This document shows, in pieces, positions 5,447 through 21,114 of a DNA stretch of 64,000 nt. Under the pieces are notes generated by a model. The model was given only the letters and a program-made list of their open reading frames with translations, was not told where the DNA came from and did not search any database. The stretch comes from Treponema sp. (GTDB lineage Bacteria > Spirochaetota > Spirochaetia > Treponematales > Breznakiellaceae): assembly GCA_031256445.1 (NCBI GenBank), contig JAIRQN010000056.1, positions 1-64,000 of the forward strand. Reading direction: 5' to 3'. How positions within the stretch are numbered: the stretch's first letter is position 1; every line of letters begins with the position of its first letter. Made by a program: the position numbers and the translations under genes.

Positions 5447-5528
5447 GCCGAAAAGTATGACATAAAACGATAAAATGGGCAACAGTTATAAAACATTGGA
5501 ATTATCTTACATAAATTCGCGAAAGTAC

Positions 5529-5710
5529 TTGACCTTTGGGAAGAAAGTGATTAACTTTAATAGTAGACTGATGATACGGTTTAGATGAATAGAACGTTAG
5601 TTTTCCTTCTAATTCAATCATCTACACTTTCAGGCATCTCTTGTTTCATAGCTGACGTACCTCAGCAACCTCCCGGGTTTCCTCACCTCCTTTTCCCGGG
5701 GGGTTTTTTT
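5529..5710 (+). ncRNA. Candidate small RNA ending in an intrinsic terminator whose loop carries a 16S anti-SD-like sequence
   Basis: TTGACC at 5529 (weak -10 nearby); hairpin GCTGA-CGTACC-TCAGC; terminator stem 5667-5677/5695-5705 followed by T7; no ORF explains the interval. Confidence 0.4.
5667..5710 (+). terminator. Intrinsic terminator
   Basis: AACCTCCCGGG / CCCGGGGGGTT 11-bp stem (one T-G wobble), 17-nt loop TTTCCTCACCTCCTTTT, then a T tract. Confidence 0.7.
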
Positions 5711-5719
5711 ATTTTTGAT

Positions 5720-5748
5720 GAAAAGAGCGTTTTTTAGACGCCCTTTTC
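5720..5748 (-). terminator. Hairpin downstream of the metallopeptidase operon; terminator-like but without a strong U tract
   Basis: Minus strand GAAAAGGGCGT-CTAAAAA-ACGCTCTTTTC, 11-bp stem with one wobble. Confidence 0.4.
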
Positions 5749-5766
5749 CCATTGATTAAGACTTAC

Positions 5767-5952
5767 TCATTGCGGACCTGCGTGTGATTGAGGGTGTTGC
5801 TCTGTTGAAACCATACAATCATTTTTAAGTGCAGCTTTCACTTCTGTCTTAATGCTGTTTGTTTTATCAATTAGCATTTTTAGGTAAATGCTTCTTTGAA
5901 GACTTAAAGACAGTTGCTCTTTTGATAAAACCGCTTCTCTGCATATAATCAT
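5767..5952 (-). CDS. Small 61-aa ORF overlapping the metallopeptidase 3' end in another frame
   Basis: ATG at 5952 preceded by AAAGGAGG with 6-nt spacing; runs 100 nt beyond the peptidase stop. Confidence 0.5.
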   Translation of the reverse strand: MIICREAVLSKEQLSLSLQRSIYLKMLIDKTNSIKTEVKAALKNDCMVSTEQHPQSHAGPQ

Positions 5953-7630
5953 AATTTTCCTCCTTTGCCGGTATCCGGCTTAATATTGTTGTATCAATAA
6001 TGCCAATATCTACTGATTTCTCAATAATAAAATTCCTTATTGAGTATTGATACCTTTCTTCGTTACCTTTTGTAATATAATTTATAATTGATAGCTCAAG
6101 CGAATCCGCTCCTTGATTTAAAACATTTTGGTATTCTGCCCAGCCGTCTTTGGAGTATTTCTGTAAATAATTGATCACATTAGTCCAAAAAAAACTTAAT
6201 AGATGAAGCTCTTCCACAGAGCGGGCGTTTCTGCTTTGTTGATACATTTCATAGAGTTCGTTTTCAATGCCGTAATAATCAAGTGTTATTATTCCTGTAT
6301 CATATTCTGCGTTTTGGATAACTTCCAGTATCATATCCATAATATTTTTATATGTAGCTTGAAAGAAGCTGTATATCTGATCTTTCTCTTCTGCGAGTTG
6401 ATTAAATTTTATTGTTCCATCATCTTTTATAAAAGAGATAGCTAAACCTACAAGAACATTACTCATCAAAACCATATAAGGATTTTCATCATCCGAATCG
6501 AAGAAATTGTCAGACATATAATTATACACATGCCTGGTTGCGCGTTTTTTGTCTGTCCTGGAAATGTCAAGTACCCATGCGAAAAAACCCTTGCTTCCAT
6601 CTTCCTGGTCAACTGCCCAATCTGCCAAAGCTTCGTGGATTACGTGCAAAACTCCTCCGCCTTCTATAAAGTTGAAATGTAATGCGTGATGTATCGGCTG
6701 TATTTTCCTGTAAGAAATTTGATGCCCTCGTTCATGGGCGATGGTCGAATTTTGCATCATATCCTGAATGAATTCACCCTTAATGCCTTTTACCTGGTTA
6801 GTGGTAAAAGCGTTGTGAAGATGTAATGTTTTTCTTTTTATTCCCTCACATAATGCTGTGTTTGGAAATAATGATAAATCATTATTATCTTGATTTTCAT
6901 AAAAATTTTGCCATTTATTTTGAAAAATAGTTTTATAACTTTCAATTCGAATTATTGAGGAATTTTTATATACTTCAGCCACGATCCCACTAATAAAATG
7001 ATGAGTTCTGACAAATTCCTTTTGTATTAAATATACTTCTTCATTTTGTTCTATTTTAATTTTCTCCAGTTTACACAGAATGAACCTTGAGCCACAAGGA
7101 TAACTGTATGAGTTATAAAAGTAGAAATCTGCGTTTAATAATTCCAGTAAATCATTAATATAAGTGAAATCAGTTTGTGGATATTTCATACCTAAGATAT
7201 TTAAGTTATAATTTTGTAAATATGCCATATATTGTTCGCTTGACATACCTCCGAATTTTTTATGACATTCATCTAACTTCCTTTCCAGTCTCGTAATATC
7301 AAAGAGAGTAACTCCGCGATCGTTAGGTATGTTCAGAATACTGCGGGCTAAACAGATACTTAAAGTTAATTCATCGTATGGCTCAAAATTATTGGTCGAT
7401 TTTGTAAAATTATACATAATCAAAGCTAATTCTGTTAAATTCCTTTTTAACCATTCTAGGTTAAATTCATTAATGTTTTCTTTTGTCATTTCATAAACAA
7501 CGTCTTTACTTAAGAATTTATCTTTATTCATTAAAGCTCTTTTAACAGGTAAATTATATTTTTCTGAAAAATGTTTGTGCATTTCCTGCAACTCATCATC
7601 TTTTAATTTTGAATATACCGGTATTTTCAT
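5867..7630 (-). CDS. Putative HExxH metallopeptidase, paralogue A (unknown family)
   Basis: AHERGHQ zinc-binding motif, downstream HEALADWAVD as candidate third ligand; no signal peptide seen; many segments shared with 7649..9424. Confidence 0.65.
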   Translation of the reverse strand: MKIPVYSKLKDDELQEMHKHFSEKYNLPVKRALMNKDKFLSKDVVYEMTKENINEFNLEWLKRNLTELALIMYNFTKSTNNFEPYDELTLSICLARSILNIPNDRGVTLFDITRLERKLDECHKKFGGMSSEQYMAYLQNYNLNILGMKYPQTDFTYINDLLELLNADFYFYNSYSYPCGSRFILCKLEKIKIEQNEEVYLIQKEFVRTHHFISGIVAEVYKNSSIIRIESYKTIFQNKWQNFYENQDNNDLSLFPNTALCEGIKRKTLHLHNAFTTNQVKGIKGEFIQDMMQNSTIAHERGHQISYRKIQPIHHALHFNFIEGGGVLHVIHEALADWAVDQEDGSKGFFAWVLDISRTDKKRATRHVYNYMSDNFFDSDDENPYMVLMSNVLVGLAISFIKDDGTIKFNQLAEEKDQIYSFFQATYKNIMDMILEVIQNAEYDTGIITLDYYGIENELYEMYQQSRNARSVEELHLLSFFWTNVINYLQKYSKDGWAEYQNVLNQGADSLELSIINYITKGNEERYQYSIRNFIIEKSVDIGIIDTTILSRIPAKEENYDYMQRSGFIKRATVFKSSKKHLPKNAN

Positions 7631-7648
7631 TTAAACTCCTCCTTAGTT

Positions 7649-9424
7649 TTATGCGGTTTTTGCATGTAAATTTTCTATGATATTAATAAAATTAATATCA
7701 TGATTTGAAATTTTAATTAAACCTATCTCATCTGCTCTGGCGAAGATATACTTTCTAAGAGAAAAATTAAAATCCCCGGCTCTGTTGTTTGTAATGAAAT
7801 TTAATAAATCTAATTCGAACTTTTCGGTCTCATCCTTAAAAATATCGTTATATGATTTCCAGCCGGTTTTTTTATAATTTTCCAATTTTTGAAGAGCCTT
7901 CTTCCAGTATGAATAAGTATCTCTGTATTCTTCCAATGAAATTTCATTATTACTGCTTATGTATTCATTATATATTTCATTTTCCAATTCTGAAAAATTA
8001 ACTTTTTTGTTATCAATGTTATAATATGAACTTTTTATTACCGACATTAATTTTTTTAGGATTTTCCTTAAAGTTACTAAAAGAAAATTGTAAATATGTT
8101 CGATCTCAGATTCCAACCTTTTAAAATCAACTCTGCCATTTGAATCTATAAAACTAATAGCCATTCCAACCAAAACATTAGATAAATGAGCAAAAAATTC
8201 TTCTTCCTCGTCTACAAACCAACAGTCAGAAAGATAAAAAAAGAATTTTCTTTCAGCTCTTGAATAATCCTTTTTTGAAGTTTCAATAAATCTTTCAAAG
8301 CTCCCCTTCTTATTTCCTCTCTCAGGAGCGAGGTCGGCCATTAATTCCATTAACCCGTGGATTAAATTATCCCCCTTAACATATAGCTTTTGGAAATTTG
8401 ATTCGTCTTTAGGGAAATCTGAGTTTGCGATCAAGTGCCCAAGCTCATGGAAAACAATACCCTCTTTAATGTCAGAAATGATCTCGTTAGACAATTTTTT
8501 TACATCTTTTTGGTTGTATGCGTTTGATTTTTTTAAGGCAAATAACTTGAATCCTTCGCGTAATGCGCTATTAGGATGTTTCTGTGCGATTAAAGTTTCA
8601 AATTTTGGTTGTGAATAAAATTTATACCATTTATTGTAAAACACTACCTCTATGGCTTCCATCCTGATTTTCATTCCTTCATCATACAGTGATGCGACTT
8701 CTGATAACGTATAATTCGGCGTTCTGACATATTCACGGTTAATAAGGTGCACTTTATAACCATCAATGTCTTTTATCTCTCTCTTCCCCAGAATAAACCT
8801 GGCAACAAAAAAATTATCACTATCAGAATACATCTGATAATCAACATCCAATAAATCTATTAATTTAGGGTTTAAGTCACTAAAATAAGAAAAGTCTTTT
8901 CCAAGTATCTTTACCGGATAATCTTTAAAGTACTTAATAATTTCATCTCCTGTTAAGTCTCCTAAGTCTTTTTCCAGTTGTATTAAGCGGATACGTAAAG
9001 AAATTTCATCACTAGAAGTAACATCTATTAAATTATTTATATTGCAAAAATTTCTTAAAAATGATACAAGAGTTCTTTCCCTTCCCATATAAAAATCGCG
9101 ATAATTATTTTTTTCCATAGCTAATATCTGTAATAAAGCGAAATACTGTAAGACCCTGCATAGTTTTTCCAGAATGGCCTGATTAATCAAGTAGAAAACT
9201 CTTTCATGATCGATATTATCTGATTTGTTTAAAATAATTTTTTTTAATTTTCGTTCTTCTTTGGGAATTTTTTCATCCAATAGCTCAGGAAAATCTTTAC
9301 TTATGCCATCAATAATATAATCCAGTTCCATATCCGTTAAATCTGAATAAATACTCCATAAGCTATGTCTTGGCGGCATGCTGGTTATATGGTCTTTTTT
9401 AAGATACCGTAAATATTCAAACAT
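7649..9424 (-). CDS. Putative HExxH metallopeptidase, paralogue B (unknown family)
   Basis: FHELGHL motif, downstream LMELMADLAPE; shares REYVRT, NKWYKFY, PNSALREG, SNVLVGMAISFI blocks with 5867..7630; GGAG SD overlaps the upstream stop. Confidence 0.65.
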   Translation of the reverse strand: MFEYLRYLKKDHITSMPPRHSLWSIYSDLTDMELDYIIDGISKDFPELLDEKIPKEERKLKKIILNKSDNIDHERVFYLINQAILEKLCRVLQYFALLQILAMEKNNYRDFYMGRERTLVSFLRNFCNINNLIDVTSSDEISLRIRLIQLEKDLGDLTGDEIIKYFKDYPVKILGKDFSYFSDLNPKLIDLLDVDYQMYSDSDNFFVARFILGKREIKDIDGYKVHLINREYVRTPNYTLSEVASLYDEGMKIRMEAIEVVFYNKWYKFYSQPKFETLIAQKHPNSALREGFKLFALKKSNAYNQKDVKKLSNEIISDIKEGIVFHELGHLIANSDFPKDESNFQKLYVKGDNLIHGLMELMADLAPERGNKKGSFERFIETSKKDYSRAERKFFFYLSDCWFVDEEEEFFAHLSNVLVGMAISFIDSNGRVDFKRLESEIEHIYNFLLVTLRKILKKLMSVIKSSYYNIDNKKVNFSELENEIYNEYISSNNEISLEEYRDTYSYWKKALQKLENYKKTGWKSYNDIFKDETEKFELDLLNFITNNRAGDFNFSLRKYIFARADEIGLIKISNHDINFINIIENLHAKTA

Positions 9425-9427
9425 TTT

Positions 9428-9643
9428 TTACTCCTTTTCCCCGTTAATTTTTTCCCATAAGATGAATTCGGTACCAGGGAAATATAATTTACTCTGCTGA
9501 GCAAGCCAGGTAGACAAGGTATTAACAGGTTCAATACCAACGATGCTTTGATTCTCAGGCTGCTCGCAGGATAGCTCACAGGAATTTGTTCCCAACACCA
9601 TACAGATGATGGTCAAAAGTAATAAGGTTGTTTTGGTATTCAT
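9428..9643 (-). CDS. Small lipoprotein, 71 aa
   Basis: Signal MNTKTTLLLLTIICMVLGTNSC with lipobox-like LGTNSC; stop overlaps the SD of the next gene. Confidence 0.6.
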   Translation of the reverse strand: MNTKTTLLLLTIICMVLGTNSCELSCEQPENQSIVGIEPVNTLSTWLAQQSKLYFPGTEFILWEKINGEKE

Positions 9644-9671
9644 AATTTTTCTCCTTTATTTAATGTAAATA

Positions 9672-9701
9672 GCTGTTCCAAAATTTTAATTCCGGAACAG
9701 C
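9672..9701. promoter_or_regulatory. Intergenic hairpin (possible attenuator or terminator)
   Basis: GCTGTTCC...GGAACAGC perfect 8-bp inverted repeat between the FN3 lipoprotein and the small lipoprotein. Confidence 0.4.
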
Positions 9702-9714
9702 CGCCATAAAATAA

Positions 9715-10713
9715 TTAATTACCTGTTGTCGCGCTGACTACAGACGAAAATTCTCCGTTGCTCGCTTTAACTTTAAAATAATATGTAGTGTTTGGTTCCA
9801 GGGGAATAATATTGGGATAAGCCATTGAAGCAATGTTGATAGCTGTCCCATAAGAAGAATAAATTGAATCAATAAATACAAATGTACCTTCCAAAGAGAA
9901 GGAGCCAAACACCAGATATGTATTCGCTTTTTCCACCTCTCCCCACGTTAACGTAATGATTCTGCCATTTACCTCTGCTGTTAAATTTTCTGGCGCTGCG
10001 AGAACTTCTGGAGTTGTAACAGAAGAAGGAGTATTCGTAGTTGCCGTAACTGGTAAGGATAATTCACCAATAGTTTCATTGGCAGTTCTCTTCGAGCCGA
10101 TCTTATAAAAATAGACAGTTCCCGGCGAAAGAGAGCTGTCATAGTATACAGTATTTAATACATTTGTGCTTATAATACTAAATTTTTCCCATGAAGGATC
10201 TGTCGTTCTATATACAACATAGTAATTCGCATCAGTTACCGGACTCCATGACAGGCTTATCTGAGATGTTGATGTACCAATGGCGGTTAAATTTTGAGGA
10301 GCTTCAAGATTTCTTAATGTAATAATTTCATTGGTTGTGGCAAACGCTTCCATTGATAATTCTCCGAAATCATCAGCAGCGGAATTTCGTCTTCCTGCAA
10401 CCTTAAAGTGATACGTCGTTCCAGGAGAGAGATTGGTATCATTGTATGTGGTATTGGATATACTTCTTGAAATGATGTTATAATTCATCCATGTGGGATC
10501 GGTTGTCCGAAAAATCGTATAAACAGAAGCTCCTTCAACTGGATTCCATGATAAATTTATCTGGGTCGTATTAATGGTTCTTGCGGTTAAATTCTGCGGA
10601 GCGGAAATTCCGACAGGAATGTTTATGCTTCTGATGTCTTCCGATGGGTTATTTTCACACCCAATTCCAATTACCATTAGGATTAATAAAAAAATAATTA
10701 ATGCTTTTTTCAT
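9715..10713 (-). CDS. Lipoprotein with three fibronectin type III domains
   Basis: MKKALIIFLLILMVIGIGC signal/lipobox; three APxNLTA...W.....YxxxRT...L.PGTxYxFKV repeats; AGAGGAGG SD upstream of 10713. Confidence 0.8.
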   Translation of the reverse strand: MKKALIIFLLILMVIGIGCENNPSEDIRSINIPVGISAPQNLTARTINTTQINLSWNPVEGASVYTIFRTTDPTWMNYNIISRSISNTTYNDTNLSPGTTYHFKVAGRRNSAADDFGELSMEAFATTNEIITLRNLEAPQNLTAIGTSTSQISLSWSPVTDANYYVVYRTTDPSWEKFSIISTNVLNTVYYDSSLSPGTVYFYKIGSKRTANETIGELSLPVTATTNTPSSVTTPEVLAAPENLTAEVNGRIITLTWGEVEKANTYLVFGSFSLEGTFVFIDSIYSSYGTAINIASMAYPNIIPLEPNTTYYFKVKASNGEFSSVVSATTGN

Positions 10714-11015
10714 ATGTATTCTTCCTCCTCTAAAAATTAATAAATTTTTGCTGATATTGTCTTCTTTAACAATTAAAGACAAAACCGACGATCCAAGTAC
10801 CATCTTTTTTGTTTCTTTCATAGATGTACCCTCCATATTATTTAGTCGAGCTATGCTCGCTTTTAATACCATTTATGCTCTTTATTCTTTCTCTTATAAT
10901 AAGTATGTAAAAAATATTTGTTATTTTTTACAATTCCATAAGTAAAATGACGATTAAAATTTTCTTTTTTATTGTCTTGTATATTCAAATTGACCTCTTA
11001 AATGAAGTGAAACCA

Positions 11016-11810
11016 CTATAGATCAGGAAGGCTCCCTACGCCTCCCTCAGCATGCTGTGTTCTCTGCCATGCGGTGTTTTCTTTTCCTATAACATAACCC
11101 CCTGAAAGTCTGCCAGTATTAAAATACGCTTCGTTAAAATGATAATCAGTTCCAAAAACATCATTCTCCAGTGAAACATTTGCTCCAATCTTTACGTAGA
11201 TCAGACTGTTATTGTTAAATGCGCCGCTTTTAATGTTTCTAATACTTTCCGGGATGAAAATTTCACGCAGACAGTTATCGGTAAATGCCAGTTCCTCAAT
11301 GGAAACAACGCCATTTGGGATAAAAATTTTATTCAATTGATTTTCCGCAAATACTCCGCTTTCAATAGTGGTAATGCCTTTTGGGATTGAAATGCTTGTC
11401 AGTTGATTACCTCTGAACGCGTCATACCCGATGCGGGTAACGTTATTTGAGATAATTATTTTATTCAGGCAGTTATTCCTGAATGCATCATGCCCGATAG
11501 ATATAATACTGTCTGGTATTGTAACACTAGTCAGCTTATTTTCCATAAATGAGGCATTTCCAATGGAGATTACGCTATCCGGAATATAAATTGCTGTAAG
11601 CTGCTTATCCTGAAACGCAGAATCCCCTATGGAAAAAACCGGTATTCCATCAATCGTCTCAGGTATCGCAACCGTTCTGCTTGAGCCGATGTAATCAATA
11701 ATAATAGCACCGCTCTGGTTATCCGATTGCCATTTAAAATCATCATGCCACTGTCCAAAAAGATTAGCGCAAATACTCATTGCAATTATACAAAATAATA
11801 ATTTTCTCAT
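11016..11810 (-). CDS. Secreted BspA-type leucine-rich repeat (LRR_5) protein
   Basis: Signal peptide; repeats IYIPDSVISIGNASFMENKLTSVTIPDSIISIGHDAFRNN. Confidence 0.85.
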   Translation of the reverse strand: MRKLLFCIIAMSICANLFGQWHDDFKWQSDNQSGAIIIDYIGSSRTVAIPETIDGIPVFSIGDSAFQDKQLTAIYIPDSVISIGNASFMENKLTSVTIPDSIISIGHDAFRNNCLNKIIISNNVTRIGYDAFRGNQLTSISIPKGITTIESGVFAENQLNKIFIPNGVVSIEELAFTDNCLREIFIPESIRNIKSGAFNNNSLIYVKIGANVSLENDVFGTDYHFNEAYFNTGRLSGGYVIGKENTAWQRTQHAEGGVGSLPDL

Positions 11811-11833
11811 TTTAACCCTCCTATAATATATTG

Positions 11834-12523
11834 TTATCTTCTAGTTAAAATAACATCATTGTAAAAAGTAAAATTATCAATTATTACAGAACTTGGTAAG
11901 TTGATATTTGACAAGGGATTTCCATTAAACGCCCAAGTTCCAATAATTGCAACAGAATCTGGAATATAAACGTTAGTTAAATTATTGGAAAAAAAAGCAT
12001 CATTACCAATAACTACAATAGAGTCAGGTATTATAACACTATTCAATTGCTTGCCATGAAATGCGCTATATCCGATGGATGTAACAGGAAGATCATTTAT
12101 TTTTCCAGGTATTGTTACATCTTTTTGATTACCTTTATAATTTATTATTTCAATTTCTGAAAAATCTAAAATCGCTATTTCATATTCATCATAAACAGAT
12201 AATGTAATATTGAATGTAGCAGCTTTCTTTCCGTTACTATTGTATTTTCTATACACAATAGGATAAATTGAATTTAATTCTATAATTATATTATCTGGTA
12301 TAGTTATGCCTAAAACATGATCAAATACAGCACCCCCAATAGCGGTTATATTATTAGGTATAACAATTATTCTTTCTTCCCCGATGTATTCAGTAATTAT
12401 TATCTCCCCATTATTTTTATGTACTCTAAAACCGTTTTCATCTACTTCACCTTGCGGTCCTCGGGCAAATGTTGACCAAACCGTGCCGATAAGAAACATG
12501 GTGATTAAAATTGTCTTTTTCAT
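11834..12523 (-). CDS. Secreted BspA-type leucine-rich repeat protein
   Basis: Signal peptide; VTSIGYSAFHGKQLNSVIIPDSIVVIGNDAFFSNNLTNVYIPDSV. Confidence 0.8.
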   Translation of the reverse strand: MKKTILITMFLIGTVWSTFARGPQGEVDENGFRVHKNNGEIIITEYIGEERIIVIPNNITAIGGAVFDHVLGITIPDNIIIELNSIYPIVYRKYNSNGKKAATFNITLSVYDEYEIAILDFSEIEIINYKGNQKDVTIPGKINDLPVTSIGYSAFHGKQLNSVIIPDSIVVIGNDAFFSNNLTNVYIPDSVAIIGTWAFNGNPLSNINLPSSVIIDNFTFYNDVILTRR

Positions 12524-12605
12524 AAAAAACTCCTATTTTCTTGTTTTTAACCTTCTTAAGAAGGCTTTGTTTAATTCATTTCACTTCTTCTATGACTGAA
12601 TTATA

Positions 12606-12758
12606 TTACATACCTAATTCTGGTTTGTCGTAAGCAGTTGAATTATCATAAATCACCCGTACTACTCCAGCTTGTATGGAATTAATTGAGTAAGGAGTAC
12701 TGTCAATATAAACAAGTGCGTCTGTTGTCTCGTGTAATAATATACACTTCAAATTCAA
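12606..12758 (-). pseudogene. Possible 3' fragment of an unidentified gene
   Basis: Open frame LNLKCILLHETTDALVYIDSTPYSINSIQAGVVRVIYDNSTAYDKPELGM* without a convincing start. Confidence 0.25.
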
Positions 12759-12819
12759 GGCTCACTACAATCATAACAAGCACAAAAACGCTTTTTATAA
12801 TGATTATATGTTTTCTTTT

Positions 12820-13056
12820 TTATTTAAGTGAAATTACAATAATTACGTCTCTCAGGGACAGGCTGCCTGCATCGCCCATAAATACTTCTGCTGGATATGC
12901 GTTAAACCGCAGAATACAGACGGTTACTTCAAATTTCCCTTTCCTAAGCCGCCTGACGGAAAGGTTCCTGCTCCCATTGTTTTCAATTTTCCGGTTGTAA
13001 TCCTTTTTATGAGTATTTAAATTAATAGCTCTCATTATATTTACAAATCGGCGCAT
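12820..13056 (-). pseudogene. Fragment carrying the MraY/WecA-family catalytic motif
   Basis: RFNAYPAEVFMGDAGSLSLRDVIIVISL matches the MraY FN..PA.VFMGD.GSL.LG block; no remaining TM domains. Confidence 0.5.
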
Positions 13057-13260
13057 TATCGGGGGATGTCCAGTTATTATTCACCAATTTTGACGATCTT
13101 CTCTATATATCTATTTTTCTTCACTATTGAGATAAAAAACATGGAAGATAATCTTTTTTCTACATATATAACTTTTTAAACAAGTATTATGTTGTATGAC
13201 ATTATTTTATGATGATTTATCACTTTTTTATTGAATTTTCGCATACAGAAAAACGTATTT

Positions 13261-13428
13261 TTAGACATTCTTCTTTATATAACTTGGACAGAAAAGGTTG
13301 TCATGTAATGGGTGGAATCTACCGTCAATACTGCAGTAAACCTTTTCGCCTGTATGGTAACCTTCCAAGCAATTGCAGCATGAATTGTCCGTTTTTTCTG
13401 CTTTTATGTCGTCATTTTGTTTGTTCAA
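13261..13428 (-). CDS. 55-aa Cys/His-rich (zinc-ribbon-like) microprotein with TTG start
   Basis: MNKQNDDIKAEKTDNSCCNCLEGYHTGEKVYCSIDGRFHPLHDNLFCPSYIKKNV*; AGGAGG SD 7 nt upstream of the TTG; antisense to track ORF 13209..13490. Confidence 0.55.
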   Translation of the reverse strand: MNKQNDDIKAEKTDNSCCNCLEGYHTGEKVYCSIDGRFHPLHDNLFCPSYIKKNV

Positions 13429-13543
13429 AATATTACCTCCTAATAAGAATTGTAATGTATAGCTTGCTTCGTACAGTCGGACATAATTGAACGACTAAAA
13501 TTACGGCTGACATCTCTATTAAAGCTTCATGGTATTCTTAATA

Positions 13544-13572
13544 TAGACAGAAAAAAAGGCTTTGAGTATAAT
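13544..13572 (+). promoter_or_regulatory. Sigma70-type promoter for the kinase operon
   Basis: TAGACA - 17 nt - TATAAT; SD and ATG immediately downstream. Confidence 0.65.
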
Positions 13573-13594
13573 CATTCCTGTAAAGGAGATAATT

Positions 13595-14896
13595 ATGTCT
13601 GATTATGAAGAAGGTCCAGATACAATAAGAATGTGGAATAAAGTTTTTAATACTCTTACATTGGATGAAGTAATAAGTGTGATATACGATGATTTCCCTG
13701 TTCGAGAAACAAATGAAGTGTTCATGAGTAAAATAGAAAAAAAGATGACAAAACTTGGTATAACAAAAAAAGAAGTAATAAAAAGAATTAAAGAACAATT
13801 AGGTAGGAAGAATGATACCAATGTAGATAATTGGGTTAAAAAGAAAATGGACAGAGATTCTGTTTTAAAAACAGCTTTTGGCTTAGAAATAACTTATGAT
13901 GAAACTGATGTTTATTTAAAGAAATGTCTCTACGACGGTTTTTATATGCGTGATGTAAAAGATATAATTTACAGGTTTTTTCTTAAAATGAGAATAGAAT
14001 ATAATGATGAAGTTTCAAGAAAATCGAATAATTTATTATATAAAGATCTGGAAGAAATGCTGGAAAATTATAAAGGTTTATACTTTCATAATAGTAACCC
14101 AAACCCAGACCCTATTTTGATTAAGAAAATTGAAAATAATAAATTTACTAAATTTCTTGAAGATGAATTAAAAAGAATAAAAACATTAAAGGATTTAAAA
14201 GATTACTTAGAACGAAATAAATCTTTATTTGGTTCATACCGCAGAAAAACACATGAAATATTTATGGAAAACTACGAGCAAATAGAAAATCAATTATCAT
14301 CGCAAGAAAATAGAAATATTACAAGAGAAAATGAAATTATTTTAAATGGATTATGTAGTAAATTAGAAAATACAATAATATCAATTGAAGAAAAAGAAAA
14401 AATAAAAAGAAGAATAGAAGATATAAAAAAAGGAAAAATAATAACAGAAGAAGAAATTAGAGATGAGATTGTAGATAACATATCAAATTTAGAAGAAGAT
14501 GTAATAAATCCCCGTATACGCGAACTTATTACTCAGAATATACCAAGAAGAGAAGAATTTTCTCAAATGTTAATTAAATCAGTAAAAAAAGATGGTGAAA
14601 TATATAAAAATATCGATAGAAAATTACTTATCCTAACATGGTTATCTTGTAATAATGGCGATATTACAAATTTTATTAAAGGTGAGGCAAGAGACAATTT
14701 TGAATCTCATTATAAAATAATTAACGATGATATTTTAACTCCCTGCGGAATGCCATTGCTTGACCCCCGCCATCCTTTTGACTGGATAATATTTAATGCA
14801 TTATATGCCAGTCATCTTTATAATGAAGAAGATTATATTGATGATAGTCCAAAAGAAAGACTGCGAAAACTCTTTAAAAGAATTAATAGACTATGA
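13595..14896 (+). CDS. XRE/HTH-like N-terminal domain plus helical C-terminal protein, partner of the downstream kinase
   Basis: MTKLGITKKEVIKRIKEQLGRKNDTNVDNWVKKKMDRDSVLKTAFGLEITYDETDVYLKK; C-terminal DPRHPFDWIIFNAL; SD TAAAGGAGATAATT before MSDYEEG. Confidence 0.65.
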   Translation: MSDYEEGPDTIRMWNKVFNTLTLDEVISVIYDDFPVRETNEVFMSKIEKKMTKLGITKKEVIKRIKEQLGRKNDTNVDNWVKKKMDRDSVLKTAFGLEITYDETDVYLKKCLYDGFYMRDVKDIIYRFFLKMRIEYNDEVSRKSNNLLYKDLEEMLENYKGLYFHNSNPNPDPILIKKIENNKFTKFLEDELKRIKTLKDLKDYLERNKSLFGSYRRKTHEIFMENYEQIENQLSSQENRNITRENEIILNGLCSKLENTIISIEEKEKIKRRIEDIKKGKIITEEEIRDEIVDNISNLEEDVINPRIRELITQNIPRREEFSQMLIKSVKKDGEIYKNIDRKLLILTWLSCNNGDITNFIKGEARDNFESHYKIINDDILTPCGMPLLDPRHPFDWIIFNALYASHLYNEEDYIDDSPKERLRKLFKRINRL

Positions 14897-14906
14897 AGAA
14901 AATAAA

Positions 14907-17900
14907 ATGGATACTTTGATAAATATACTTCCTAAAAAAACTCTAAAATTAAATGGTAAAAGCTATATCTTGGAAAAAGTTTTAACGGGAGGAGGTTTAT
15001 CTGTCGTTTATTTAGGCCGCGCCAAAGAAGAAGAAAAATTAAAAGATTGGGTTGTAATAAAAGAATTTTTTCCTAAAGGGTACGGTATTACACGAGATGA
15101 AAATGGTGCGCTTATTATTCCGCCTGAAAAACAGAAAGAGGTTGATAAATTAAAATTGATTGTAAAACGGGAAGTTGATATTGCGCAATATCTTCGCGAT
15201 GATCGCTCTTTTTATAAAACTGATGATAAATCAAGTAATGATTTAATATTTGAATATGATGGTCCAATAGAATCAGAAGAATATAACACTCTCTATACTA
15301 TTATTAAAACAGGATCGGGAAAAACACTATTAGAAAAAATTAATAATTTTAATGATTTTATTTCTATTTGTAACTGTGTTTTGGATATATTAACTGCTTT
15401 GGAACCGGTACATGATAAAAAAACACTTCATTTAGATATAGCGCCTGATAATATTCATATTTCTACTTCCGGAACTGTACGTTTAATAGATTATAATAGC
15501 GCTTTTAGAAAAGAGATAAGAGATGAGTTTGATAATTTAATACGCGAAAGTGATGATCTTGGTACATGGCAGCCTTCATATAAACCAGGATACTCGGCAA
15601 GAGAGCTTGAAAATTTTTCTCAAACAAAACCTATTGAGCCTGATTATCAAACCGATCTTTATTCGGTAACGGCAATTTTTTTTAGGTTACTTAAAGGCAG
15701 AACATTATTAGAAGGTGATTGGAGAAATAATAAAAAATGGCGGTTAAATAATCAAAATGGTTATTTAAAAGGTTATCCAAACAGAATAGTACAGATGGTA
15801 AATGATTTTTTATGGAAAGGAATTAATAATCATTTTAAAAATATACCAGAAATGAAAGAAGCAATAGAGATTTTAAGAAATGGAGCGGAAGAAATTAAGA
15901 AACGACATATTTATAACTTTAAATATTTTAAAAATGAGTTCTATTATTATACTAAAAAAAACGAAGGATTATACGGTAATTTGTATGTAAATAATCAACA
16001 TATTCCTATAAAATTAATTTGTAATGAATTAAGTATAAATATTATGGATTTTATTAATGATAATAATTTCCGTTATGCGTGTTTGACCGGTGAGGGTGGC
16101 ATGGGGAAAACATATACATGTATTAATTTGGGCATTAAATGTATTGACAAAGAGAAATGTGTAGTATATATTCCACTTCACGATTATGATAAGCAATATT
16201 TTATTGAAGAAAGCATAAAAGTTGCTTTTGGCATTCAATCAGAAACAGAAGATGTATATAAAGATTTAATTAATGAAGAAGAAATCTTTATCTTATTAGA
16301 TGGATACAATGAAATTAATTCAAACTATATTGATAATTTTGCTAAAGAATTCGAAGAATTATGTTCAAAGAGTTATTTGAAAATATTGATAACATCCAGA
16401 AATGATGATTATAAAAAAATTAAAAACGAACTTAATGCTAAAAAATTTGAAATGCTATCATTTATGCTTATTACTAATGAGATTATAGATGAATGGATGA
16501 AGAAATATACCTCACAAAATACTAAAGTATTGCCAAGTGAATATAATGTATTGCGTAATCCTATGTTTTTAAAGATTTATGCTTATAATATAAATGAACA
16601 AAAAAAAACTATCAACCCGGAAGATTATAATTTCCTTAAAAATCCAACAACAGCAGGTGAAATAATTTGGAACTTTTTAGAACATCAAATTATTAAGTCA
16701 GAAGAAAGCAAGTATAAAAATACTAAAGAAAATAATATAGATATAATAAGGGAAGGATTTGGTAAAATATTACTTCGTTATCTTCTTCCATGTATCGCTT
16801 ATAATATTGAAATTGATGGAAAGTTAGATTTTGAATTACCAGACTTAGAAAAGTATATAAAAAGTTTTGATAAATATTATAATGAAAACAATAATATTGT
16901 TCCTGATTTTATTAAATATAAAAGTACTATTAACTATTTCTTATATAAATTAGATGATAGAGCAAATTGCTTGATAGAGCAATGTACAAAATATTTCTGT
17001 ATAGTATATGAATCAGGTGAAACTTACACATTTACCCACCAATATTTTAGAGATATTTTCTCAGCAACTCATATTAAAAACCAAATGGAATTAATTTGCA
17101 AAAATAAATCCATAGATATATCTGTATTTACACAAAAAACATTTCTTCCTCATATTATACAAATGCTGTCACAAATATTACAGGAACATAAAAAAAAACC
17201 TCCAAAATTTAATAATTCAGTTTTAAGAGAATATATTCAAAAATTAAAAGAAATATTTAAAGAAAAAAATGATGAAGAAATACAAAGATGTGTATTTAAC
17301 AGTCTTGAGATAATTAATTATGCCAGAAATGGAAATATGAGCCATGAAGATTTCTCTGAATTGGATTTAAGAGCGTATAATTTTAATAATATTATTTGCG
17401 ATAATACTAAATTTATAAGATCTTGTATATCAAAGAATACATTCTTTGCAGATGGACATGATTCTATTGTAAGAAGTGTCAACTACAGTCCTAATGGAAC
17501 TTATATTGTTTCAGCCTCAAATGATAAAACTGTAAAAATATGGGAGATATACACCAGAAAATTATTACATACTCTTAGTGGACATTTAAATTCTGTTTTT
17601 AATGCAATATTTAGTCCTATTGATGGAAAATATATTGCTTCTGTATCATGTGAAGCAATCATATTATGGGATAGGGTTAGCGGGAAACAATTATATGAAC
17701 CTATTAAAGGTGATTTTAGAAATGTACTTGATATAAGTTTTAGCCCTGATGAAAAGTATATTGCTTCGTCTTTCCTTGATAAAAATATAAAAATATGGGA
17801 AACTACGACAGGTAATCCCTGTACGATAGGAAATGAGATTTTTACAGGAAATGTAGAATATTTGTATGACGATACATCTGTTTTTTCTAATCTTTGGGAT

Positions 17901-19646
17901 AATTCATATAAGGTATTTATAAATCATAATGGGAGAAATATTGATATTTTTAAGAATTTTTTAAATTATGATGGTTTTTTTTCTATTAATAATAAAGGTT
18001 ATTTGACTATACATTGGTTAAAAGAAAAAAGTAAAGCTATAAATAGTGATATAATAGAAAAATTAGATCAAGAAGTACATTCTTTTAAACAAATAGAATA
18101 TAGTTCCAATGGGAGATATATATCTTTTATAACTAAAAAAGATTTTTTAATTATAAAAGATATAGAAAACAATGAAAATACTTACGCTAAGCAAAGTAAA
18201 AAGGCTATTTACAATGCAAGATTTGCCCCAAAGTCTGAATACATCATTTTAGGTTTATCTGATGGCACTATTGAAGAATGGGATATTATACAAAGAAAAA
18301 TAAAACGTGTATTCGGAAACAAGTGTGATTATACTTTAAATAATGTGAATTTAAGTCGGGATGGTGAATTTATTATAATGTCAACAAATGATGATATTAT
18401 TATGTTAAAAAATATTAAAAGAGAATGCTTAATTAATTACTTTGAAGGTTCTAATGCGTTTTATAGTCAAAATGATAATTATTTTTTTATTATATATAAA
18501 AACATATTAAGTATATATGATAATTTTGAATATAAATTAATAAAAAATTGTCCCCACTATCTTTATAATATTTATCCTGATTATATAGAATTTGCAAAAT
18601 GTTCATCTAAGAGTAATTATATAGCTACTGTATCAAAAAAAAGAATAACAATATGGAAATGTAAAAATGGTGAAAATATAAATTTCTTTGAACATTATGA
18701 AACTAGAGATGTACAATTCAGTCCAGATGAAAATTATATTCTTGTAACCAATAATGATTATATTAAAATATATAATATACATGATAAATCATCTGAAGTT
18801 CTCAAAGATTCAAGTACTGCCTATTCTGCACAATACTCGCCAAACGGTGAATTAATTATTTATGCTCAAGGAATAAATATATATGTTTATGATATAAAAA
18901 ATAAAACAACTAGAAAAATTGACGGAAAAGCAGGTAGTGACAATGATATCAACTGGTTTAGTGTACAAGATTTATGTTGCGGTGCAGATATTCAAAATAA
19001 AAATGGAAATCAAACTGATCAACTAATTATTGGAATTTTACATGGTTATAATAATGTATTAGAAGAGAACAGAAATGAAGTAAAAATATGGGATATTGAA
19101 ACAGGTAATTTAATACCTTTTTTTGATGAAAGTATTAATTGTGATTCAATATCAAAAATTAAATACAGTCCCAATGGTTTACATCTCATTGTATTTTACG
19201 AGAGAAAAGGAATGAAAATATTTTATCTGCAATGGATATGGTCAAAAGAAAATGGTACATACAGACTAGAAAAAGTAATTAGTTCGGAACTTAAGCGTTT
19301 TACTGATGAGATGAATGCTTTATCTAATGATATTTTAGAAGATATTAACTTTAATTCAAATGGTAGATATATTTTTTATTATATTAATAGTTTTAAATCT
19401 TTTATGAATAGCTTTTTTTTGAATACCTATTTTAAGAATAAATATATAAGCAATTTTATTAGGATATGGGATGTTTTTGAGGATATATTATATGATTCGA
19501 TATATCCTGTACAATTTTTGAAAGTTATTAAAGCCGATTTTACAGAAATAGAGCAACCTAAAGATTTTACTGTATATGATTGGGATAAATTAATAAGGGT
19601 ATTAAAACAAAATGGAGCTATTTTAAATGAACAGATTGACAATTAA
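14907..19646 (+). CDS. Protein kinase - P-loop STAND/NACHT-like NTPase - WD40 repeat protein
   Basis: Kinase: LTGGGLSVVYLG, VVIKEFFP, LHLDIAPDNI, LIDYNS. NTPase: GEGGMGKT, IFILLDGYNE, ILITSRND. C-terminal WD40-like blades (VNYSPNGTYIVSASNDKTVKIWEI etc.). Start taken at MDTLIN, 10 nt after the upstream stop. Confidence 0.85.
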   Translation: MDTLINILPKKTLKLNGKSYILEKVLTGGGLSVVYLGRAKEEEKLKDWVVIKEFFPKGYGITRDENGALIIPPEKQKEVDKLKLIVKREVDIAQYLRDDRSFYKTDDKSSNDLIFEYDGPIESEEYNTLYTIIKTGSGKTLLEKINNFNDFISICNCVLDILTALEPVHDKKTLHLDIAPDNIHISTSGTVRLIDYNSAFRKEIRDEFDNLIRESDDLGTWQPSYKPGYSARELENFSQTKPIEPDYQTDLYSVTAIFFRLLKGRTLLEGDWRNNKKWRLNNQNGYLKGYPNRIVQMVNDFLWKGINNHFKNIPEMKEAIEILRNGAEEIKKRHIYNFKYFKNEFYYYTKKNEGLYGNLYVNNQHIPIKLICNELSINIMDFINDNNFRYACLTGEGGMGKTYTCINLGIKCIDKEKCVVYIPLHDYDKQYFIEESIKVAFGIQSETEDVYKDLINEEEIFILLDGYNEINSNYIDNFAKEFEELCSKSYLKILITSRNDDYKKIKNELNAKKFEMLSFMLITNEIIDEWMKKYTSQNTKVLPSEYNVLRNPMFLKIYAYNINEQKKTINPEDYNFLKNPTTAGEIIWNFLEHQIIKSEESKYKNTKENNIDIIREGFGKILLRYLLPCIAYNIEIDGKLDFELPDLEKYIKSFDKYYNENNNIVPDFIKYKSTINYFLYKLDDRANCLIEQCTKYFCIVYESGETYTFTHQYFRDIFSATHIKNQMELICKNKSIDISVFTQKTFLPHIIQMLSQILQEHKKKPPKFNNSVLREYIQKLKEIFKEKNDEEIQRCVFNSLEIINYARNGNMSHEDFSELDLRAYNFNNIICDNTKFIRSCISKNTFFADGHDSIVRSVNYSPNGTYIVSASNDKTVKIWEIYTRKLLHTLSGHLNSVFNAIFSPIDGKYIASVSCEAIILWDRVSGKQLYEPIKGDFRNVLDISFSPDEKYIASSFLDKNIKIWETTTGNPCTIGNEIFTGNVEYLYDDTSVFSNLWDNSYKVFINHNGRNIDIFKNFLNYDGFFSINNKGYLTIHWLKEKSKAINSDIIEKLDQEVHSFKQIEYSSNGRYISFITKKDFLIIKDIENNENTYAKQSKKAIYNARFAPKSEYIILGLSDGTIEEWDIIQRKIKRVFGNKCDYTLNNVNLSRDGEFIIMSTNDDIIMLKNIKRECLINYFEGSNAFYSQNDNYFFIIYKNILSIYDNFEYKLIKNCPHYLYNIYPDYIEFAKCSSKSNYIATVSKKRITIWKCKNGENINFFEHYETRDVQFSPDENYILVTNNDYIKIYNIHDKSSEVLKDSSTAYSAQYSPNGELIIYAQGINIYVYDIKNKTTRKIDGKAGSDNDINWFSVQDLCCGADIQNKNGNQTDQLIIGILHGYNNVLEENRNEVKIWDIETGNLIPFFDESINCDSISKIKYSPNGLHLIVFYERKGMKIFYLQWIWSKENGTYRLEKVISSELKRFTDEMNALSNDILEDINFNSNGRYIFYYINSFKSFMNSFFLNTYFKNKYISNFIRIWDVFEDILYDSIYPVQFLKVIKADFTEIEQPKDFTVYDWDKLIRVLKQNGAILNEQIDN

Positions 19647-19712
19647 AAGTTTCATAAATATCTAAATCACATACTTTCAAATATCAACGACAAAACCCCT
19701 AAACTGATACGA

Positions 19713-19745
19713 TATAATCATTATTACAAACCTTTGTTAAAGGTT
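19713..19745 (+). promoter_or_regulatory. -10 element plus inverted-repeat operator-like site
   Basis: TATAAT at 19713-19718; AACCTTT-GTT-AAAGGTT at 19729-19745. Confidence 0.4.
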
Positions 19746-19776
19746 AATGATAATGTCTAAACAAGAGGGGAATGTT

Positions 19777-20397
19777 ATGAAAAAGGTGTTTTTATTTGTT
19801 AAATTGTTGATTTTTTTGGTTTCTGCCGGATTTGCACAATCGTCTCAGAATAATCCGGGTCAACTTGCAGAATTGCTTAAAAATGATACTCTTACCCTTT
19901 TTGCAAGAGGAAATGGAGGCAGCTCTGGCGCTGTCGTTTATGGAAGTTTAAAGAACAATTCTTCAAACGTGGTATATGTTGATGTAAACCTGAATGATGG
20001 TCTTTTTTTGATTAATAACGCGGAAGGTCAAAACATGATCGCTACAAGCGTGTTCTTTGCTGACGGCGGATTTTATAAAATTAATTCAAAAAAATTTATA
20101 AATCTCGCTCCAAATTCGAATACCCAGATCGTTATGAATGCTTTTTGCGTTGATTTTGAAAAGAAAAACCCGATTAAAACAGAATCTTTTTCATTAAGTG
20201 TAATGCCGGACAGATTGAAAAACATATCTTCGAACATAAGCAGGTATATTGCAAATCATCTTTATGATGACGATCCGGTTACTCCGGTTCAACTTGCTGT
20301 TTGGCATACCCAGGGAATATCACAAAAAGATATTTCTGCAAAATTTATTTTTACTGCCTATGACTGGGAAATATCTATAAAAATTCTTGATTATTGA
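19777..20397 (+). CDS. Secreted hypothetical protein
   Basis: Signal peptide MKKVFLFVKLLIFLVSAGFAQ; GAGGGG SD; no recognised domain. Confidence 0.65.
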   Translation: MKKVFLFVKLLIFLVSAGFAQSSQNNPGQLAELLKNDTLTLFARGNGGSSGAVVYGSLKNNSSNVVYVDVNLNDGLFLINNAEGQNMIATSVFFADGGFYKINSKKFINLAPNSNTQIVMNAFCVDFEKKNPIKTESFSLSVMPDRLKNISSNISRYIANHLYDDDPVTPVQLAVWHTQGISQKDISAKFIFTAYDWEISIKILDY

Positions 20398-20445
20398 CGA
20401 TATTTTTGAAATACACAAATATTTTATTTTTTATGGAGGTAAAAA

Positions 20446-21114
20446 ATGAAAATAAATAAAGCAGTAAAAATAATATTTGGAATAATGTTTCAATTATTGA
20501 TTTTGGGGTGTATGTCCCAAAAAGACATAACGCCTGCAGAGCAAAATTATGGCATAAAATTGGGGATACAATATGCGTCCTATTCTAATAATGATGTAAC
20601 GAATTTTTTTTCTTATGCTTTATTAACATCTGATTTAGATCATATTTTATTAACAGATTCAGATAATTATGTCAATTTTGATCAAGATCAAATAATGAAA
20701 ACCAGAATACAAGGCAATCTTCGGCTTTTTATTAATGAAAAAAATCAATCAAGTTACTACAATTTTATTAATTTAAAAGAACTTCCATTTACCTATAATG
20801 GTAATACAGTTTACTCATATATTTATTCACATTCAATAATACCTGATAGTTATTTTGTTGGAGTTGCATTAATTTCAATAGATACAAATGTTAAAAAAAT
20901 GTATTTTTGGAGAACACATAGTACATCTTTAACAAGATTACCGGGAATTAGTGATTTTGGTAATATATTTATAGGCAATTGGTACAGAAACATAGATATT
21001 CAAAGCATGGAGAGAGCGTATTCGGTGTTTTCTACCTATAACAAATATCAGGAATCAATCAGCAGTATCAATGATTTAGATGATTCCAGTTTATTTATTA
21101 CATTTACCTGGTAA
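20446..21114 (+). CDS. Hypothetical lipoprotein
   Basis: MKINKAVKIIFGIMFQLLILGC lipobox; GGAGG SD. Confidence 0.65.
   Translation: MKINKAVKIIFGIMFQLLILGCMSQKDITPAEQNYGIKLGIQYASYSNNDVTNFFSYALLTSDLDHILLTDSDNYVNFDQDQIMKTRIQGNLRLFINEKNQSSYYNFINLKELPFTYNGNTVYSYIYSHSIIPDSYFVGVALISIDTNVKKMYFWRTHSTSLTRLPGISDFGNIFIGNWYRNIDIQSMERAYSVFSTYNKYQESISSINDLDDSSLFITFTW

Follow-up and report, generated by a model that had tools for sequence, protein, structure and literature searches.

The window analysed here is a 64,000 nt stretch of contig JAIRQN010000056.1 from a Treponema sp., and it carries a pair of co-directional forward-strand genes that resemble a bacterial immune-type sensor and its companion. The first gene (13595..14896; ATG at 13595, stop codon ending at 14896) encodes P0001, a 433 aa protein that is predicted to be helical and is called the partner below. 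The second (14907..19646; ATG at 14907, stop codon ending at 19646) encodes P0002, a 1579 aa kinase-NACHT-WD40 protein. Both open reading frames (ORFs) are intact and are separated by a spacer of 10 nt (14897-14906), as an earlier note on this DNA had described. A Shine-Dalgarno-like AAAGGAG lies ahead of the partner start. That note had also placed the sequence TAGACA-17-TATAAT (13544..13572, forward strand; 11/12 matches) ahead of both genes. The site is present and is the joint best (one of two) among the promoter-like sites of the region, but the number of such sites is close to chance (55 observed vs 51.9 expected in this AT-rich DNA). The motif alone is therefore no evidence of a promoter, and its assignment as promoter of the pair is plausible on sequence grounds.

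P0002 begins with a Ser/Thr protein kinase domain (14907..15911, forward strand; N-lobe signature IKEF.P...RD.NGALI), which was identified with Pfam, PADLOC, a leave-one-out profile and an alignment. The Pfam Pkinase match is above the gathering cut-off (E-value 2.6e-9), and the best PADLOC match of the domain is PD-T4-6 (E-value 5e-17), which covers residues 15-329 only. The motifs VVIKEFFP (~49-56), HLDIAPDN (~175-182) and IDYN (~194-197) contain the catalytic residues K52, D177 (the HLD aspartate), N182 and D195 (the DFG position), none of which varies when five related kinases are aligned with P0002. Catalytic activity of the domain is putative. The leave-one-out kinase profile recovers it at 107 bits (E-value 3.6e-31), and the highest score among the other Clostridial kinases tested is 68 bits. 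P0002 was compared by profile scores because a kinase tree could not place it; there it formed a long branch joined to another long branch. Kinase matches across the phylum were considered as relatives and appear to be generic kinases.

The kinase is followed by a NACHT-clade STAND ATPase with a helical/winged part (15924..17342, forward strand), identified from family alignments, AlphaFold2 and Foldseek. Walker A (GEGGMGKT, residues ~395-402), Walker B (LLDGYNE, ~463-469) and the sensor motif TSRND (~496-500) are all present, and the segment FTHQYFRDIFSATH starts at residue 709. Pfam supports Pkinase and WD40; the NACHT assignment comes from family alignment and the structure model. The AlphaFold2 model, made with 45 homologous rows, is mostly at ~90 (predicted local distance difference test, pLDDT) over residues 365-840, and the top folds that Foldseek returned for it are NLRP3, NOD2 and NLRC4, with Avs4 and the AVAST5 filament lower. 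This combination of motifs and helical/winged extension places the ATPase in the STAND/NACHT group. The WD40 beta-propeller region (17451..19526, forward strand) matches Pfam with an E-value of 3e-28. The "about a dozen" blades of the earlier note are best restated as three strong repeats called by Pfam and ~14-15 degenerate units, the latter counted by eye. The protein ends with a C-terminal cap (19536..19643, forward strand; ADFTEI...LIRVLKQNGAIL) that is common to the NACHT-WD40 family (family consensus 'GCDF...L..YGAIF'). The architecture and motifs first proposed for P0002 are therefore borne out.

The partner is harder to classify. P0001 has no significant Pfam match and PADLOC, which picks up chiefly the kinase domain of the unit, has no model for it, so that domain searches, which matched Pkinase and WD40 in P0002, left the partner without a Pfam family. 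A profile made from the stand-alone members of the family, with P0001 left out, nevertheless finds an XRE-like domain at residues 18-137 (13646..14005, forward strand) with an E-value of 4.7e-9. The same profile gave no match up to E 10 against 1000 shuffles and the other ORFs of the window. The domain is ~140 aa long and only distantly XRE-like; the description of the partner as XRE-like and helical holds for this N-terminal domain in that loose sense. The partner C-terminus is conserved in alignments (CGM..LDPRHPFDW, residues 377-428; 14723..14878, forward strand) and resembles a weak second copy of the last helices of the XRE-like domain. From its sequence, the partner may bind DNA.

Evidence that the two genes belong together comes from Clostridia, of which 236 genomes were sampled. 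Among these genomes, the P0002 kinase is matched best by a kinase-NB-ARC-TPR protein (L222), and a full-length partner homologue (MGKYEDGN to RNPFDWLI) is encoded 75 nt upstream of its gene. Using this homologue as the query, partners were found 56 nt from a kinase-NB-ARC gene on plasmid pRUMAL01 of R. albus 7 (L229) and 14 nt from a kinase-STAND gene on plasmid pCY186 of Butyrivibrio proteoclasticus (L230). At a fourth locus (L232, genome G873) the partner is 37 nt from a kinase-NACHT gene. All four loci thus share with the window a full-length partner directly upstream of this kinase type and a STAND ATPase. A leave-one-out partner profile recovers P0001 over residues 38-406 (E-value 2.5e-10). 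The remainder of the second protein differs among the Clostridial pairs, with an NB-ARC-like or NACHT ATPase and TPR or other tails, which indicates that partner and kinase are constant and that the STAND-sensor half is exchanged. Judged from these sequences, the partner gene is real and is dedicated to this kinase type, as had been suggested from the window alone. It is very improbable that the two genes are chance neighbours and the partner an unrelated orphan. Such an orphan might well lack a Pfam family and be missing beside other NACHT-WD40 loci, which carry other effectors and where the partner was not found, but it would not be expected to precede a kinase-STAND gene at four Clostridial loci with full-length homology and spacers of 14-75 nt.

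The two plasmid-borne pairs have neighbours of the kind found in defence regions. The pRUMAL01 pair is located beside brxL (BREX), ThiF and JAB genes, a PHD-PIN toxin-antitoxin pair and integrases, and the pCY186 pair is within ~25 kb of a type I restriction system, an integrase and a caspase gene. In Ruminococcus albus AR67 (L083, 3066-10001), a 605-aa gene, a PP2C phosphatase, a kinase-NACHT ORF and a WD40 ORF occur in a row, possibly as a phosphatase-containing relative of the unit. The 605-aa gene was considered as a partner, and the profile gave no support. Other Clostridial loci (L218-L220, L223) have several Ser/Thr kinases in a row, several of them beside PP2C-like phosphatases and FHA-like proteins, as judged from sequence.

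The XRE-like domain is not restricted to these pairs and was found in 82/236 of the Clostridia genomes. Across Clostridia, small XRE-like proteins are paired with a Ser/Thr kinase whose gene is mostly transcribed divergently (L114, L115, L153-L160, L172-L186), and most of these kinases fall in a supported clade. The domain is also found at the C-terminus of macro-domain proteins (L101, L102, L108, L109, L189-L199), which in the sample never have a neighbouring kinase (0/10). Stand-alone copies adjoin a Ser/Thr kinase in 21/31 cases, two of which had been found in the initial search with P0001; the background rate of kinase neighbours (46/395) is an overestimate, since these very genes are at the centre of the loci. 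These associations bear on the main rival to an immune function, in which the unit is toxin-antitoxin-like. The kinase would be a toxin, as HipA is, the XRE-like partner mainly its antitoxin and an operon repressor, and the STAND-WD40 half would free the kinase upon a stress cue that need not be a phage. The partner is indeed encoded first and adjoins the kinase, it has an XRE-like domain whose stand-alone versions mostly adjoin a Ser/Thr kinase, and DS-6 is an anti-phage pair of a HipA-like kinase and a partner predicted to bind DNA (PMC13092281). On the other hand, the kinase is Hanks-type, with Pkinase and PD-T4-6 and no HipA model among the matches listed, the stand-alone pairs are mostly divergent, DNA binding by the partner is putative, and the macro-domain proteins carry the domain with no kinase nearby. 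We therefore regard a toxin-antitoxin role as unlikely, though it is the alternative to be taken most seriously.

The NACHT-WD40 part of P0002 has its own set of relatives. The NACHT core was scanned for in 84,980 species genomes and was found at 48 genome loci. The closest NACHT-WD40 relatives are from Candidatus Bathycorpusculum (archaea, Bathyarchaeia), the best two at 40-43% identity. In one of these (40% identity) an Mrr-like PD-(D/E)xK domain replaces the kinase, and in the other a helical region is found there. At a Bathyarchaeal locus (L045, 2948-8803), the gene for a PD-(D/E)xK-like NACHT-WD40 protein is followed downstream by another gene of this nuclease-like type, whose end is close to that of the contig. 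Across the family the N-terminal effectors include caspase (8), CHAT (5), metallophosphatase (3), TIR (2), kinase, Mrr-like PD-(D/E)xK and other domains, and the WD40 tail is kept in ~31/40 members. Among annotated plasmids, the closest proteins are three of the caspase-NACHT-WD40 type; they are encoded on one from Haliscomenobacter and have MoxR, CHAT and SUMF1-type genes next to them. A layout of effector, ATPase and repeat sensor in which the effector is swapped from locus to locus is what is expected of NLR-like sensors. Together with the Foldseek matches, it supports the likeness to Avs and NLR-type sensors that the earlier note had drawn.

The pair looks like a horizontal acquisition in this Treponema. 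The GC content of the unit is 25.5%, compared with 40.5% for the window. The partner gene is single copy in its own genome, no true homologue of it was detected among 200 genomes from this bacterial family, and the kinase-STAND head found weak kinase-like partial matches there and nothing more. ORFs in same-genus genomes (L002/L003) were dropped as candidate partner homologues; they are SurA-like secreted proteins with weak similarity. Viral contigs gave two weak kinase matches, and neither the partner nor the NACHT core had a relative there. The unit is located in an AT-rich stretch (~5500-20900, 24-38% GC) between flanks of 42-48% GC, and the right edge of this stretch, near 21.1 kb, is sharp. 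This stretch also encodes BspA-type leucine-rich repeat proteins and an fn3 lipoprotein-like protein. Two adjoining reverse-strand genes at 5867-9424 (587 and 591 aa, the second with a HELGH zinc-peptidase-like motif) have no meaningful match in Pfam or PADLOC. The foreign base composition and the absence from the sampled family genomes also argue against a housekeeping or developmental phosphorylation switch, unrelated to defence and working in the manner of the kinase-WD40 protein PkwA. Kinase-propeller signalling proteins such as PkwA do exist, and no gene in the surroundings of the window copy was recognised as a defence gene. The Clostridial pairs that are carried on plasmids and lie near defence genes, and the swapping of effectors across the NACHT family, point the other way, and we consider such a switch improbable.

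We favour, with moderate confidence, the interpretation that the unit is a two-gene NLR/Avs-like conflict module, probably anti-phage, with a kinase effector that works through a dedicated partner. This interpretation builds on what was observed directly (domain composition, intact motifs, the NLR-type ATPase fold, effector swapping, partner and kinase conservation, and foreign base composition), and the low GC, the sporadic occurrence and, in Clostridia, the location on plasmids and near defence genes were counted in its favour. The domain layout speaks for an ATPase whose oligomerisation is driven by the sensor and activates clustered kinases. In such a mechanism, the WD40 propellers would recognise an intracellular cue of infection, upon which the NACHT ATPase would exchange nucleotide and oligomerise. 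The oligomer would cluster and activate the N-terminal Ser/Thr kinases, which would act through the partner or be restrained by it; the partner could be a regulator, substrate or adaptor of the kinase. The infected cell would finally arrest growth or die.

Several points weigh against the conflict module. The partner-kinase order recurs in the neighbourhood survey at four Clostridial loci, though a fifth Clostridial-type partner homologue (L231, on a short contig) is not followed by a kinase-STAND gene. Structure prediction of the two proteins gave an NLR-type fold for the ATPase, but it was weak over the kinase (~40-65 pLDDT, yet with kinase-like secondary structure) and gave no reliable fold for the partner, which was modelled from its sequence alone (pLDDT 38). 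The lack of a recognised defence gene near the window copy counts here as well. None of the members of the partner and kinase family has a known phenotype, and STAND proteins serve in non-defence signalling too.

A broader and more tentative proposal, which we put at somewhat below even, is that the window and Clostridial pairs form a two-gene immune family, in which a constant cassette of kinase and XRE-like partner is placed on interchangeable STAND halves (NACHT-WD40, NACHT-other, NB-ARC-TPR). Sensing would then be converted into phosphorylation and not into direct killing by a nuclease, NADase or protease. Where the outcome of a bacterial NLR-like sensor is known, it is mostly the direct destruction of DNA, NAD+ or proteins. 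If the proposal is true, bacteria would have, in sensing coupled to phosphorylation via a dedicated partner, their own counterpart of immune kinase signalling, and the family would be an uncatalogued defence candidate found in Clostridia of the gut and rumen and on plasmids of these bacteria. It is directly testable because two-gene versions occur in the sequenced cultured strains R. albus 7 and Butyrivibrio proteoclasticus B316.

Each domain of the unit is already known, and two papers list kinase domains among the effectors of STAND-containing conflict systems (PMC8195603, PMC7159879). A dedicated partner and exchange of the STAND half on a constant kinase-partner cassette are apparently undescribed; no description was found in the open-access papers searched, subscription literature being outside the search, and we do not claim priority. 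The best PADLOC matches of the P0002 kinase are PD-T4-6, Mokosh MkoA and MADS mad6. These match the kinase domain only and their models are without a STAND-WD40 fusion or partner; P0002 does not have the kinase-only architecture of PD-T4-6. The Haliscomenobacter relatives recall, by their neighbours, the gene set of NTP-dependent conflict systems (Kaur et al., 2020; PMC7159879). When neighbouring window ORFs were scanned with Pfam and PADLOC, no vWA/MoxR genes of the ternary core were found. In HipBA and DS-6, too, a kinase is combined with a partner of the helix-turn-helix or DNA-binding type, but the kinase of P0002 is of a different type and is fused to a STAND sensor. Avs (AVAST) proteins share the STAND ATPase, N-terminal effector and repeat sensor, and Avs4 and Avs5 are among the Foldseek matches. 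P0002 differs in its WD40 array in place of the Avs TPR-type sensor, its kinase effector and its partner gene; it has no match to the PADLOC Avs models, and 4/46 NACHT family members match Avs2 (best E-value 1.8e-7). A like layout is found in experimentally anti-phage proteins, the nuclease-NACHT proteins bNACHT25/32 (PMC12169576) and the metallophosphatase-NACHT protein DS-8 (PMC13092281). They also have an N-terminal effector, a central NACHT and a C-terminal sensor, and the NACHT-core family of P0002 itself includes metallophosphatase and nuclease-like effectors. P0002 is distinguished from them by its protein kinase effector, its WD40 array sensor and its second, dedicated gene.

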